Shown: positions 57,174 through 63,184 of the stretch, piece after piece
Numbering within the stretch: position 1 is the first letter of the stretch
Layout: every line of letters begins with the position of its first letter
Assembly: GCF_017310545.1 (NCBI RefSeq)
Contig: NZ_CP066203.1
Coordinates: forward strand, 1,798,001-1,862,000
Origin: Methylacidimicrobium sp. B4
Lineage (GTDB): Bacteria > Verrucomicrobiota > Verrucomicrobiia > Methylacidiphilales > Methylacidiphilaceae
DNA: 64,000 bases
Direction of reading: 5' to 3'
Program-made: the position numbers and the translations under genes
Notes under the pieces: model-generated
Seen by the model: the letters and a program-made list of their open reading frames with translations, nothing else
Databases searched by the model: none
Told to the model about the DNA's origin: nothing

Positions 57174-58454
57174 ATGGGCGGTGATCGCCGGGAGATGCGG
57201 GAGCGCCGAGCTCAGAGAGTTCCGGCTCGGTTTGCGGGCTGCGGGCTCCCGGAACGGCCGCGGCGGTGGGCCACAGGCTTTTCCCCAGCACCGCTGGCTA
57301 CTGCGGGCTTCTCGGACGAACCGAGAGGGATCGCCGGAAGAATATGGCGCCATGCCCGTGCGGCCGTGGTGCTCGTAGCGGTGGTGCTTCCCGTGACGGG
57401 AAGGGCGGACGGGATTCGCCTCGACCGCGACAATCCGGCGAGTGAGGCGATCGTTCAGGTGGTCGCCTATCAAGGCATCGGCAACGGCATCGTTCGGGTG
57501 ACCGGAACCGGGTTTTTCGTCAACCCCCATGGTCAGCTGATCACCAATCGACATCTCCTGTCTCGGGCGGTCTTCTGTGCGGTCCTGGGACCCGGGACGG
57601 AGCCGCTCCGCGTCGACCGGGTCTTGGCGGAGGCGGGAGATCTGGTCCTGGTGCAAGTCGACCTTCCGACCGGGGCAAAGGCCGAAGCCCTCCAGCTGAG
57701 AAAGACCCCCCCCATTCGGGGGGAGGCGATTCGGATCGAAGGCTATCCTCTGGGTGTGGGTCTTGCCTCCGCGTCCGGGCGGGTGGTTGGATTTCGGCAT
57801 AAACCCTATCACGGAGCTCTTTCCTTCGAGGTGGACGCGCCAACCTTTTCCGGGAATAGCGGAGGCCCCGTTGTCGATGAAGTGGGACGAGTCGTCGGAG
57901 TGACGACCTTTCGTTCCCTCCAGGGAACGAACCGGCTCGCCGGGGCGCTCTGCCCCCGCGTCCTGATGGATGAGAGTCGCATCGTCGACCTCCCCTTCCC
58001 GGTCTGGTCTCGGCGAACCGGAAACGGAAGGGGAGCGGTCGGCCCAGCCGCCAATGGATGGAGGGCGCTGCAGTGCGGAGACCTCCAGTCGGCGCGCCTT
58101 TTTTTTCGAACCGCCCTCCGCAGTCAAACCAGAGGGGCATTGCTGCACCAAGGCCTTGCCGAAGCCCTGCTGGAAAGCGGACGGCCCCAGGAAGCCGCCT
58201 TGTCTCTCTCCGCCGCGATCGAGGAGAGACCGAAGGATTTTCTCGCTCGCCTTCGGCTCGCCGCCGTCTACCGTCGGCTGGGAAAACCGGAGTTGGCGGC
58301 ACTCGAGGAAGCGGCCGGCCGAAGAATCGAAGGGTCGATCTTCTCTCGGATCGAAACCGAGGTGGCCGCCCGGGAGCAGACCGGCCTTCCCGGACTTTGG
58401 GAAAAAGCACGCTTCATTCTCCAGCGGCCAGTCGAATCGGGAGAGCTGCGTTAG
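57174..58454 (+). CDS. Secreted trypsin-like serine protease with TPR-like C-terminus
   Basis: 426 residues from ATG 57174; ATG 57195 is an alternative. A basic ~50-residue leader precedes a hydrophobic signal-type stretch (HARAAVVLVAVVLPVTGRADG). The trypsin-like domain keeps the triad His127 (ITNRHLL), Asp156 (EAGDLVLVQV) and Ser229 (TFSGNSGGPVV). From ~residue 300 Ala/Leu-rich helices (ALRSQTRGALLHQGLAEALLESG...) look like two or three TPR-type repeats. There is no PDZ domain, so it is not DegP-like. An outer-envelope protease is likely; the target is unknown. Its stop overlaps the convergent rbfA stop by 4 bp. Confidence 0.8.
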   Translation: MGGDRREMRERRAQRVPARFAGCGLPERPRRWATGFSPAPLATAGFSDEPRGIAGRIWRHARAAVVLVAVVLPVTGRADGIRLDRDNPASEAIVQVVAYQGIGNGIVRVTGTGFFVNPHGQLITNRHLLSRAVFCAVLGPGTEPLRVDRVLAEAGDLVLVQVDLPTGAKAEALQLRKTPPIRGEAIRIEGYPLGVGLASASGRVVGFRHKPYHGALSFEVDAPTFSGNSGGPVVDEVGRVVGVTTFRSLQGTNRLAGALCPRVLMDESRIVDLPFPVWSRRTGNGRGAVGPAANGWRALQCGDLQSARLFFRTALRSQTRGALLHQGLAEALLESGRPQEAALSLSAAIEERPKDFLARLRLAAVYRRLGKPELAALEEAAGRRIEGSIFSRIETEVAAREQTGLPGLWEKARFILQRPVESGELR

Positions 58455-58828
58455 CTTTCCGGAGCCGGCGGTTTCTCCCCCTCTTCGCCCTCGCTCTCGA
58501 TTTCCTGGAGAATGCGCAGGATGCGATCCCCTCGTTCCAGGGAGTCGTCGAGGCGAAAGGTCAGCTGGGGTGTAAACTTGGACTGGAGCTTCTTGCCGAG
58601 CCGATGCTGCCACTCCCTGCGGTGGCGATGGAGGAGAGAGAGCAGCTCTTCGTTCCGCAGGGGAGACTGCCATGCGCTGACGAAGACGAAAGCCTCTTTC
58701 AGATCCGGAGTCGTTTCGACCGCAGCAATGGTCAGCAGCAAGCCTTCGAGTGAGACTTCCCTGCGAAAGTATTCCGAAAGTTCCTTTCGGATGACTTCTG
58801 ACACCCGGACGGTTCGATGTGTACCCAT
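58451..58828 (-). CDS. rbfA: Ribosome-binding factor A
   Basis: 125 residues with the RbfA KH-like fold: RVSEVIRKELSEYF at the start, LLLTIAAVETTPDLKEAFVFVSAW in the middle and KLQSKFTPQLTFRLDDSLERGDRIL towards the end. It helps mature the 30S subunit at low temperature. It is last in nusA-infB-rbfA, after a 135-bp gap that holds a 7-bp-stem hairpin. Confidence 0.95.
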   Translation of the reverse strand: MGTHRTVRVSEVIRKELSEYFRREVSLEGLLLTIAAVETTPDLKEAFVFVSAWQSPLRNEELLSLLHRHRREWQHRLGKKLQSKFTPQLTFRLDDSLERGDRILRILQEIESEGEEGEKPPAPES

Positions 58829-58963: not shown

Positions 58964-60883
58964 TCAGAGGCTTTGGGGAACTCGCTCCAGCTGATAGCAC
59001 TGGATGGTGTCGTTCGGCTCGTAATCATCGAAATTCCCCAGGCGCATGCCGCACTCGAGTCCCGCCCGGACCTCCGGGACCTCGTCCTGAAAGCGTTTGA
59101 GGGTTTGGATGCTCCCATCGTAAATCGGCTGCTTGCCGCGGAGCACCCGGGCCTGACCCTTACGGACCATTCTGCCCGACTGTACCAGGACACCCGCAAC
59201 CGAAAATTTATTGAGCTCAAACACCTTCTTGACGAGCGCCGTACCGAGCACCGTTTCACGGAGCTCCGGTTCGAGCAGTCCCGCCATGGCGTCCCGGACT
59301 TGGTCGACGAGCTCGTAAATAATGCTGAAGAGCTTGATCTGGACCCCTTCCCGCTTGGCGGCGGCCGCGGCGGAGCTATCGGTCTTGACGTTGAAGCCGA
59401 TCACGATCCCCTCCGACGCCTTGGCCAGAAGAATATCTGACTCGGTTACCGGGCCAGCTGCGGAATGAATGATCGATAGCTCCACCTTGTTGCTGGGAAT
59501 CTTTTGGAGTTGGCCGATCAGGGCTTCGATCGATCCCTGAGTGTCCCCCTTGAGCACCAAGTGCAGCGTCTTGCGCTGACCCTCGGCGATCGCCGCGAAG
59601 AGATTTTCCAACGTGATCTTCGGACCGTCTTCCTGCCGGGGACGCTTGAGCGCTGCGAGCCGTTCTTCTGCGGTCTGCCTCGCCTTGCGCTCGTCGCTCT
59701 CTACGATCAGCTCTTCTCCCGGCGAAGGGAGGCCGCTCAAGCCGAGGACCTTGACAGGGGTGGATGGCATCGCCTCCCGCACCGTCTTCCCCAGATCGTT
59801 GATGAGCGCCCGGATCCGTCCCCAATACGGCCCGCACACCGCGATGTCTCCCGCATGCAGGATCCCTTTCTGAACCAGGACGGTCGCCGTCGGTCCTCGC
59901 CCCGTCTCCATCTGTGCCTCGATTACCCGGCCGACCGCCGGACCATGAAAGGGAGCATGCAGCTCGAGAACCTCCGCCTGGAGAAGGATCATCTCGAGAA
60001 GATGATCGATCCCTTTCCCTTTCAGCGCGGAGACTTCGCAGAAGATGGTCTCTCCGCCAAACTCTTCCGGGACCAATCCGCGTTCCTGGAGCTGAGTCTT
60101 CACTCGGAGCGGGTTCGCTCCCGGAGCATCGATCTTGTTGATGGCGACCAGGATCGGAACTCCCGCCGCCCGGGCATGATCGATGGCCTCCATCGTCTGC
60201 GGCATGGCACCGTCGTCGGCCGCAACGACGAGCACGACCAGGTCGGTGATCGAAGCTCCCCGAGCCCTCATTGCGGTAAACGCTTCGTGGCCGGGGGTGT
60301 CGATGAAGGTGATCGATTTGCCGCCGCGGCTGATCGTATAGGCTCCAATGTGCTGGGTGATCCCTCCGGCCTCCCCCGCGGCAACCCGGGTGTGCCGGAT
60401 CGCATCCAGCAAGGTGGTTTTTCCGTGATCGACATGACCGAGAAAGGCTACGACGGGACAGCGAGCCTGCAACTCGGGCTTTACCTCCCGGGCGGGCGGC
60501 GGTTCTTCGATCACCTTGGGGGGCGGCGGCGGGGGTCCGTGACGCTCCTTGCGCTCCGTCTGCACCTCGAAGCCCATGCGGTTCGAAACCTTTCGGGCGA
60601 CATCCTCGTCCAACAGCTGGGTCAGGGTAGGGAAGATGTTCATCTCCATGAGATGATGAATCAATTGGAAGGGCTTGATTTCCAGAAGGCCCGCCAGCTC
60701 CTTGACCGCAATCGGCCCCCGAAGGGAAATCGTTTTCTGGGCAGGGGGTGCGGAGCCCTCTTCGGGCTCCGGTGGCGGGGCAACTGGCTTGGGAGGTGCT
60801 TCCGTCAGAGCAGCGTGCCCTGCGGAGATGGTGCGATCGTCCCTCTGCTCCGGAGGCGACAGGGTCTGCTTGGTCTTGGGCAT
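58964..60883 (-). CDS. infB: Translation initiation factor IF-2
   Basis: 639 residues, short for the family. An N-terminal IF2_N-like block ([21 protein letters not shown], ~53-73) follows a Pro/Ala-rich stretch. The GTPase domain opens with GHVDHGKTT (149-157), then [17 protein letters not shown] and NKIDAPGAN. Domains II-IV include [17 protein letters not shown] and a C-terminal [18 protein letters not shown]. It brings fMet-tRNA to the 30S subunit. It lies 21 bp after nusA. Confidence 0.98.
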
Positions 60884-60904: not shown

Positions 60905-62158
60905 TTAAGAAGCTTTCGCGCAATGCCGTGCGTTTTCGCGCAATTGCTTAACGGCGATCAGGTCTAATTCGGGAAGCACCGAGGCGAGATCGGTCTCCTC
61001 GCTTTCGGCTACGGCAGACGGGCTCAAGAAGCCCGCTCGTACGATCTGCTCGGCCGTGGACGGATCGACCGAGAGGGCGCTCGCCATCTCCTCGGTCGCT
61101 CGCGCCAGCTTTTGCGCAAAGTTTTCCTCCGCTGACTGTTCTCGGACAACGTCGATTTCCCATCCAGTGATCTTGCTCGCCAGCCAGGCGTTCTTCCCTT
61201 TTCGACCCAGGGCGATGGAATAGTTCTCCTCATCGACCACGACCTTCACGCGCTTGCCCGCCTCATTGAGCTCGACGCTCTTGATGCGAGCGGGCTTGAG
61301 GGCTTCAACGGCCAACTCGGCCACGTCGGAGGACCAGCGAAAGAGGTCGATCTTTTCGATGTGGAGCTCGCGCACGATGTTCTTGACCCGGGCCCCTCGC
61401 ACCCCCACGCAGGCTCCGACGGGATCGATCTTGGGATTGGCGCTCCAGACGGCGATCTTCGTTCGAAAGCCGGGCTCCCTGGCCATGGCCTTGATCTCCA
61501 CCGTGTGGTCGGCCACCTCGCTCACTTCCAGCTCGAGGAGCTTCCGGACAAAATTGGGATGGCTGCGGGAGAGGAGGATTTGCGGGCCATGGGAGGTATT
61601 ATCCACGGCGAGCACGTAGGCGCGGATCCGGTCCCCGACAACATACTCCTCGCCGGGCACCCGCTCGCGAGCCTGCATCACGCCTTCGTAGCGGCCGAGG
61701 TCGAGAATCACGTCCGATCGATCGAAACGCCGGACGGTTCCCATGACGATGTGATCGACGCGGTCCTTGAACTCGGCGAGCACCATCTCGCGCTCGATCG
61801 AGCGGAGGGCCTGATTGATCGTCTGCTTGAAGACCTGTGCGGCGATGCGACCGAAGTCCTTGGGGGTTACCTCGACATCGATCAGCTGCCCGAGCTGCGC
61901 GGTCGGGTCGATCTCCTTGGCCCGCTTCAAGGAAACTTGGCCCCGCGGATCCTCCACTTTGTCCACCACCTCGAGATTCGCTCGTGCCGTGATCTTGCCA
62001 GTCTTCGGGTGGATTTCTACCCGCAAGTCGCGTGCGGGCCCGATGCTCTTTCGGGCCGCGGCAAGCAGGGCCGATTGCATGGCTTCCAGAAAGGCTTCGC
62101 GATGAATGCCCTTCTCCCTTGCCATGTATTCGATGATGGCCAAGACTTCTTGATTCAT
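60905..62158 (-). CDS. nusA: Transcription termination/antitermination factor NusA
   Basis: 417 residues from ATG 62158, with CGGAGA upstream. The N-terminal RNA-polymerase-binding domain is followed by an S1 domain (MGTVRRFDRSDVILDLG), KH1 (GACVGVRGARVKNIVRELH) and KH2 (ALGRKGKNAWLASKITGW), then a short helical C-terminus without the repeated acidic domains of E. coli NusA. It modulates pausing, hairpin termination and antitermination. It heads nusA-infB-rbfA; the 5' leader contains a terminator-like hairpin. Confidence 0.96.
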   Translation of the reverse strand: MNQEVLAIIEYMAREKGIHREAFLEAMQSALLAAARKSIGPARDLRVEIHPKTGKITARANLEVVDKVEDPRGQVSLKRAKEIDPTAQLGQLIDVEVTPKDFGRIAAQVFKQTINQALRSIEREMVLAEFKDRVDHIVMGTVRRFDRSDVILDLGRYEGVMQARERVPGEEYVVGDRIRAYVLAVDNTSHGPQILLSRSHPNFVRKLLELEVSEVADHTVEIKAMAREPGFRTKIAVWSANPKIDPVGACVGVRGARVKNIVRELHIEKIDLFRWSSDVAELAVEALKPARIKSVELNEAGKRVKVVVDEENYSIALGRKGKNAWLASKITGWEIDVVREQSAEENFAQKLARATEEMASALSVDPSTAEQIVRAGFLSPSAVAESEETDLASVLPELDLIAVKQLRENARHCAKAS

Positions 62159-62184
62159 GACGGTCTCCGGCGATACTTCCAAAG

Positions 62185-62214
62185 AAAAAAAGTGGAAACT
62201 CTGCAAGTTTCCAC
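62185..62214 (-). terminator. Terminator-like hairpin in the nusA leader (possible attenuator)
   Basis: On the minus strand GTGGAAACT (62214-62206), loop TGCAG and AGTTTCCAC (62200-62192) form a perfect 9-bp stem, followed at once by seven T (62191-62185). It lies between a predicted promoter at 62247-62275 and the nusA ATG at 62158. No gene ends here on either strand, so it should work on the nusA transcript itself. Function as an attenuator is inference. Confidence 0.65.
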
Positions 62215-62246
62215 CTTTTCTTTGCAGCAGAATCGCCTTGCCAAAA

Positions 62247-62275
62247 AAGTTACGAACGGTTCTTCCAACGGTCAA
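62247..62275 (-). promoter_or_regulatory. Predicted sigma-70-type promoter for nusA-infB-rbfA
   Basis: On the minus strand TTGACC (62275-62270) and TAACTT (62252-62247) are 17 bp apart. The start site would be near 62240, giving an ~80-nt leader that contains the hairpin at 62192-62214. Matches are five of six and four of six, respectively. Confidence 0.55.
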
Positions 62276-62338: not shown

Positions 62339-63184
62339 ATGCACGGCCACGAGGGCGACCAAACGGATGGCTTGGGGTTGATCGCCGGTCGCGGAGTCTA
62401 TCCGGTTTTAGTGGCTCGGGCCGCGCGCCGTGCCGGAGTCGATGGGCTCAGCACGGTCGCCTTCGTCGGGGAGACCGATCCGGAGATCGAGAAGCTCAGC
62501 CGTCGGGTCGAGTGGCTCCGCGTCGGGCAGCTGGGGAGCCTGCTCCGCTTCTTTCGTCGTAGCGGCGTCTCCCGGGCCGTCATGGCGGGGGCGGTCGCCC
62601 CCTCCCATCTTTTCGACTTGCGGCCCGATCTGAAAGCTCTTTTGCTCCTGGCCCGCCTCAAGGTCAGAAACGCCGCCACCATCTTCGGGGCGATTGCAGA
62701 GGAGCTGCGGGGGGTCGGGGTCCTGCTTCTGCCGGCGACGACCTATCTGGAGGAGGAGCTGGCTCCCGCCGGCCATTTCGGTGGGCCGCCTCTTCGTCCG
62801 CGACAAAAGGAAGATGCCGAGTTCGGGTTTCGGATGGCGAAGGAGATTGCTCGGCTCGATATCGGACAATCCCTGGTGGTCAAGCAGGGCACGGTGCTGG
62901 CCGTGGAGGCGTTCGAGGGCACCGACAAGACCCTGGAGCGCGGGGGCGGCCTCGGGCGCGGCAAGGCCGTTTTAATCAAGGTGAGCAAGCCGGACCAGGA
63001 CTTTCGATTCGACGTGCCGGTGATCGGACGACAGACGATCGAGATGGCCAGCAAGTCGGGGGTGGCGCTCATCGTCTGCGAGGCGGGAAAGACGCTGATC
63101 CTGGAGAAGGAGACGGTCGTCCAGCTCGCCCAGGAGCTGGGAATTTCTCTTTACGGAATGCAGGAGGATGGAGAAAACGCATGA
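62339..63184 (+). CDS. lpxI: UDP-2,3-diacylglucosamine pyrophosphatase LpxI
   Basis: 281 residues from ATG 62339, after GCGGAGG. It matches LpxI (DUF1009): GLIAGRGVYPVLVARAARRAG at the start, MAGAVAPSHLFDLRPDLKALLLL, then DIGQSLVVKQGTVLAVEAFEGTDKTL and FDVPVIGRQTIEMASKSG. It cuts UDP-diacyl-GlcN to lipid X in lipid A synthesis, the alternative to LpxH. It is coupled to the following oxidoreductase by ATGA and diverges from nusA. Confidence 0.95.
   Translation: MHGHEGDQTDGLGLIAGRGVYPVLVARAARRAGVDGLSTVAFVGETDPEIEKLSRRVEWLRVGQLGSLLRFFRRSGVSRAVMAGAVAPSHLFDLRPDLKALLLLARLKVRNAATIFGAIAEELRGVGVLLLPATTYLEEELAPAGHFGGPPLRPRQKEDAEFGFRMAKEIARLDIGQSLVVKQGTVLAVEAFEGTDKTLERGGGLGRGKAVLIKVSKPDQDFRFDVPVIGRQTIEMASKSGVALIVCEAGKTLILEKETVVQLAQELGISLYGMQEDGENA

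Follow-up and report, generated by a model that had tools for sequence, protein, structure and literature searches.

Upstream of the rimP-nusA-infB operon lies the rimP-leader, a terminator whose 5' arm is rich in G and whose 3' arm is rich in C, with a U-stretch behind it; it has been termed the most ubiquitous bacterial attenuator (Naville & Gautheret 2010, PMC2965389). It comprises neither an antiterminator nor larger conserved elements; the authors favored NusA as the protein being sensed and named RimP as a second possibility, leaving the choice between the two open (PMC2965389). In the nusA operon of B. subtilis, whose leader is 180 nt long (PMC2965389), read-through is controlled by intrinsic termination in the 5' leader, which NusA stimulates, according to a review's account of Mondal et al. 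2016 (PMC12288461). In E. coli, RNase III cleaves the nusA-infB leader (PMC6511841), and NusA is reported, in work cited in PMC2965389, to repress its own operon. We found GGGCTTTAGGCCC-T7 just before the E. coli rimP gene, which puts a GGGC...GCCC-T7 element at the equivalent position. A literature search, light on subscription journals, returned no work on nusA leaders of Methylacidiphilum or other Verrucomicrobiota, and an earlier mention is possible.

The nusA leader of Methylacidimicrobium sp. B4

The window, i.e., the whole 64,000-nt stretch of DNA from the acid-loving bacterium Methylacidimicrobium sp. B4 that was analyzed, carries on its minus strand an operon whose first gene is nusA (60905..62158, 417 aa, start codon ATG at 62158..62156; TIGR01953, E = 4.6e-115), followed by infB, encoding IF-2 (58964..60883; TIGR00487, E = 8.6e-211), and rbfA (58451..58828; TIGR00082, exceeding its cut-off). 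The upstream neighbor, which lies outside the element, is a divergent lpxI-like gene on the plus strand (62339..63184; NF047836, E = 5.3e-42, under its curated cut-off).

All elements of the leader are on the minus strand. The -35 element TTGACC (62270..62275) and the -10 element TAACTT (62247..62252) are separated by a 17-nt spacer, placing the predicted transcription start near 62239. TTGACC recurs in 48 of the 50 leaders of the host's order, the remaining two having TTGACG and TTGCCG, and the aligned promoters of relatives mostly show TANNNT after a spacer of 16-17 nt. A consensus promoter scan of the window did not pick up the nusA promoter because its hexamers lie under the scan thresholds.

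The terminator hairpin P2 (62192..62214; GTGGAAACT-TGCAG-AGTTTCCAC) follows the -10 element after a gap of 32 nt and starts 56 nt upstream of nusA. It consists of a perfect 9-bp stem and a 5-nt loop, and is directly followed by a T7 U-tract (62185..62191), the predicted end of a short terminated RNA. The preliminary description of this DNA had read the same promoter, a perfect 9-bp stem with T7 within 40 nt of it, and then nusA, an arrangement that we could confirm in every element. In both the single-sequence fold and the genus consensus, the A-rich sequence CAAAGAAAAG (62215..62224) is predicted to pair with the U-tract and the following CUUUG, lengthening the terminator stem. An outer helix, P1, is predicted from the same two sources and from a flank-swapping test on 15 lineages; it joins GGCGAU (62232..62237) to AUCGCC (62169..62174), which adjoins the nusA Shine-Dalgarno sequence GGAGA (62164..62168).

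The leader folds with -35.4 kcal/mol (z = -4.4 versus dinucleotide shuffles). A hairpin with a T-run is by itself not rare: a simple terminator scan of the 6 kb around the leader gave 7 terminator-like sites where 6.2 were expected, and the significance of P2 thus rests on its conservation. The same scan reported P2 solely on the plus strand. With its A-rich and T-rich flanks (62185-62223, plus strand), P2 can in the host genus be read as a terminator toward lpxI as well, and in this orientation it could end antisense transcripts.

Conservation in the order and across the phylum

By NusA identity, close relatives of the host are found in Methylacidimicrobium (93-98%) and Methylacidiphilum (73%), both Verrucomicrobiota. 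NusA was located in 57 of 60 relatives, and 50 nusA leaders were readable, covering nine families with NusA proteins 49-98% identical. The preliminary description had proposed aligning the nusA leaders of related genomes and had staked its reading on the conservation of stem and T-run. Both are present upstream of nusA in all 50 leaders, 50-66 nt past a TTGACC-like -35 box, with a U-tract of T6-T9.

Pairing in the 9-bp stem amounts to 95% over the 29 distinct sequences, and the GTGG/CCAC base of the stem is nearly invariant, while the loop varies in length. Four of the nine pairs show changes on both sides, and the resulting covariation score was reached by none of 500 shuffles; as these leave the relatedness of the sequences in place, the score counts as support and not as a probability. 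Covariation and variable loop length together speak for a hairpin formed in the RNA and against a fixed-spacing operator in the DNA. We rejected an inverted-repeat operator because the varying loop leaves the spacing of the arms unfixed. Outside P2, the leader sequence is not conserved from family to family. The genes upstream of nusA also differ between families while the leader stays; the neighbor is divergent in f1 and f8, the calls in other families being raw ORFs and less certain. We likewise rejected P2 as the 3' terminator of a gene ending ahead of it, since it is located downstream of the promoter and the neighbor is divergent in these two families.

A covariance model of P2 found a single site in the host's own genome, the nusA leader (E = 9e-8), plus a weaker opposite-strand reading of the palindrome. 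The next matches in this genome (E of 2.3 and worse) did not rise over background, and a multi-copy regulon was rejected on this account. Strong matches in the class, of which 286 genomes were searched, were nusA leaders of the host's order, in whose genomes the model matches essentially only at nusA. Two genomes of one genus have a second, weak match (G021:C24:3909-3945 and G026:C9:263977-264014; E about 0.002-0.004). At curated gathering cut-offs, the window, the leader region and 20 related leaders gave no Rfam match other than tRNA, and permissive thresholds yielded chance matches only.

To cover the phylum, we fetched 60 additional Verrucomicrobiota nusA leaders, nearly all from different families, and combined them with 15 lineages of the host's order into a set of 75. 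At a threshold of dG <= -8, a terminator-like hairpin was detected in 68 of the 75 leaders, compared with 15 of 225 dinucleotide shuffles. Beyond the host's order, it occupies the same place in 53 of the 60 leaders, the usual stem being AGTGGG...CCCACT or AAGTCGG...CCGACTT. The 5' arm contributes more G than C to the G-C pairs in 66 of the 68 leaders (271:72 pairs; 3:1 in the window leader itself), whereas the same procedure gave 170:172 by orientation for 47 terminator-like hairpins of the window; as the leader families are related, a binomial p value on this polarity would be inflated. Seven leaders from seven families (L086, L088, L091, L099, L121, L142 and L143) yielded no terminator-like hairpin ahead of nusA. 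In L142 a hairpin, GGCGGGTTTCG...GACCCGCC with TTATTTTTT, is visible by eye and was missed by the filter; others of the seven may have lost theirs. In family f54, the nusA promoter is closely preceded by a tRNA gene of the same strand as nusA (L097:171-242, minus strand of the locus), which recalls metY-rimP-nusA of E. coli.

The RimP N-terminal domain (RimP_N, PF02576) is absent from the host's own genome and was undetected in all 140 Verrucomicrobiota genomes searched, each at least 90% complete, and the C-terminal domain (PF17384) was undetected in 58 of 58 genomes of the phylum; the control for these searches was positive in 10 of 14 reference genomes. The phylum has thus retained the leader on nusA in the absence of rimP. 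This excludes RimP as the leader's general sensor and means that the leader serves nusA-infB and not rimP. The host retains infB and rbfA although rimP is undetectable, and 30S maturation apparently proceeds without RimP here.

The outer helix P1 and additional leader structure

In the host's order, P1 encloses both the terminator and the U-tract. Across the 15 lineages, the pairing energy was -17.9 kcal/mol for native flanks and -12.8 kcal/mol when flanks were exchanged between lineages (z = -5.3, p = 5e-5), a signal that was robust to flank length. Beyond the order the signal was weaker (z about -1.7 to -3.0) and sensitive to flank length, and many families of the phylum have P2 without a clear P1. 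The sequence of the helix differs between families, for example UGUCCAAG/CUUGGACA in f5 and GAUUACGGCACG/CGUGUCGUAAUC in f9. P1 and P2 form a near-continuous stem in the window, and P1 touches the Shine-Dalgarno sequence in the host genus; among relatives, the distance from P1 to the ATG is variable and the ribosome site mostly open. Because the 3' strand of P1 is positioned past the U-tract, the helix would form only in read-through RNA.

In one genus of family f9 (g13; L017-L022 and L025), the outer helix, with the strands CCTGCGGTGGG/CCCACTGCAGG, extends into the 5' arm of P2, and in the modeled read-through fold of L020 a longer P1 substitutes for P2. In some families of the class, the terminator AAGTCGG...CCGACTTTTTT is closely preceded by a second conserved hairpin, GCTGG...CCAGC, which shows compensatory changes (L095, L100-L103, L106-L111, L115-L119 and L123); these leaders look like a larger structured leader absent from Rfam. 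A search for an antiterminator upstream of P2 gave no consistent structure; until the 3' arm of P2 has been transcribed, no more than about half of its 5' arm is paired.

Proposed mechanism and comparison with known systems

As the preliminary description had argued, a promoter upstream of the hairpin with no gene between them leaves nusA-infB-rbfA as the only genes whose transcription P2 can stop; the divergent orientation of lpxI leaves no same-strand gene to be terminated ahead of P2. Because promoter, hairpin and U-tract stay together in front of nusA across the order while the neighboring genes change, a role in attenuation of this operon is strongly supported, and we infer that termination takes place at P2 in vivo. 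NusA is, by analogy, a plausible signal. That the leader acts as a NusA-responsive transcription attenuator of nusA-infB-rbfA is, in our judgment, probable.

According to this model, transcription would initiate near 62239 and proceed for 20-odd nt before P2 and the U-tract are transcribed. There, the polymerase would either stop, with an RNA of about 55-57 nt (42-73 nt predicted across relatives), or read through into nusA. By stimulating hairpin-dependent termination, NusA would set the terminated fraction, resulting in negative feedback with more termination at high NusA and read-through of the operon at low NusA. In the read-through RNA, the strand past the U-tract would pair with the strand preceding P2 to form P1, probably locking or stabilizing the 5' end of the mRNA after the decision; P1 might serve commitment, RNase III processing or the stability of the mRNA. 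Many terminators that depend on NusA are weak. With its 9 bp and T7, P2 of the window has the look of a fairly strong terminator, and a strong one would need a means of read-through. A more elaborate and rather doubtful version of the model would make the leader of Methylacidiphilales and relatives more than a simple terminator, namely a structured RNA switch and self-contained NusA sensor that evolved after the phylum's loss of rimP: GTGG/CCAC would be read directly by NusA, and the covarying P1 would form only after escape to commit the transcript, for which it would displace P2 in some lineages, with the GCTGG...CCAGC hairpin as a counterpart in another order.

An attenuator need not respond to NusA, and IF-2, RbfA, NusG, polymerase speed or NTP supply might be sensed in its place. 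The operon encodes IF-2 and RbfA too, either of which could feed back, and the near-invariant GTGG/CCAC base suggests recognition by some factor. However, the other published candidate, RimP, is absent phylum-wide, and NusA is a factor of hairpin termination with a precedent in B. subtilis and reported repression of its operon in E. coli (in work cited in PMC2965389); a signal other than NusA appears unlikely to us. It is still harder to regard termination as a minor activity of a post-transcriptional element, in which the helix of about 20 bp formed by P1 and P2 would serve as an RNase III site, a stabilizer of the 5' end or a tuner of translation. The near-continuous stem in the window, the restriction of P1 to read-through RNA, its contact with the Shine-Dalgarno sequence in the host genus and the RNase III cleavage of the E. 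coli nusA-infB leader (PMC6511841) would all fit such an element, but it would have no use for the U-tract found right behind P2 in all 50 leaders of the order, which is needed by termination only. Neither the varying distance to the ATG, with a mostly open ribosome site, nor the many families with P2 and no clear P1 agree with it, and we consider it quite improbable.

The unit could also be unregulated, either as a bidirectional terminator or insulator between the divergent nusA and lpxI genes or as a fixed damping of nusA. P2 can indeed be read as a plus-strand terminator in the host genus, yet this reading is found mainly in family f1, the hairpin lies downstream of the nusA promoter and cannot insulate nusA from upstream transcription, and the leader is retained in families whose upstream neighbors vary, all of which makes this explanation very improbable. 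Hardly credible, finally, is a separate small RNA gene placed before nusA by chance: its own promoter and terminator and a predicted RNA of about 42-73 nt would suit one, but nusA is always the gene that immediately follows the unit, no second promoter is apparent between P2 and nusA, the 3' strand of P1 lies beyond the terminator, and the sequence outside P2 is not conserved between families.

For the NusA-responsive attenuator, a phylum that lacks rimP and has retained the nusA leader is a natural experiment against RimP as the general sensor, and the persistence of the leader points to NusA as the controlled and probably the sensed protein. The short leader, with its conserved stem and a predicted RNA of 55 nt, offers a minimal system for studying NusA sensing in vitro. 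P1, in turn, indicates that the rimP-leader class can bear extra structure not reported by earlier screens.

The preliminary description had cited NusA autoregulation in E. coli, through a different leader, as precedent. The precedent holds, the closest experimental one being that of B. subtilis (PMC12288461), while the E. coli leader does contain the corresponding GGGC...GCCC-T7 element. Like the verrucomicrobial leader, the E. coli metY-rimP-nusA-infB leader has terminators ahead of the operon, but it also includes a tRNA, several promoters, two tandem terminators and rimP. The B. subtilis attenuator shares an intrinsic terminator between the promoter of the nusA operon and its first gene, recognized here by sequence only; it differs in having rimP (ylxS; PMC2965389), which our control search also detected, and a 180-nt leader, compared with a rimP-less operon and a terminated RNA of about 55 nt. 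Dependence on NusA has been shown in B. subtilis, and we infer it for the verrucomicrobial leader.

The likeness to the rimP-leader extends to the nusA-infB operon, the terminator with a directly following U-tract, the short distance to the first gene and the lack of a detected antiterminator. Hairpin and U-stretch lie in the 5' UTR of the operon, the hairpin of the window starting 56 nt ahead of the first gene as against 4-130 nt for the rimP-leader, and the polarity of the arms, with G prevailing on the 5' side and C on the 3' side, is seen in the 66 of 68 leaders described above. The strict core GGGc(...)gCCC is replaced by GTGGAAAC...GTTTCCAC in the window and by GTGGGAAC...GTTCCCAC or GTTTCCCAC in sister lineages of the order, whose core can be written GTGG(G/A)AAC...GTT(T/C)CCAC; other orders have GTGGG...CCCAC and some GGGC...GCCC, and a GGG...CCC core is present in many families of the phylum. 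Unlike in the rimP-leader, an outer helix surrounds the order's terminator, and the first gene of the operon is nusA and not rimP, which is missing from both operon and genome. By position, polarity and U-tract, the leader is not peculiar to Methylacidimicrobium sp. B4 and belongs to the widespread rimP-leader class, in which, with the strict core and rimP missing, the verrucomicrobial nusA leader is best described as a divergent variant and not a strict member. What is new with respect to the described systems is the persistence of the leader on nusA without rimP across a phylum and, in the host's order, the covarying outer helix P1.
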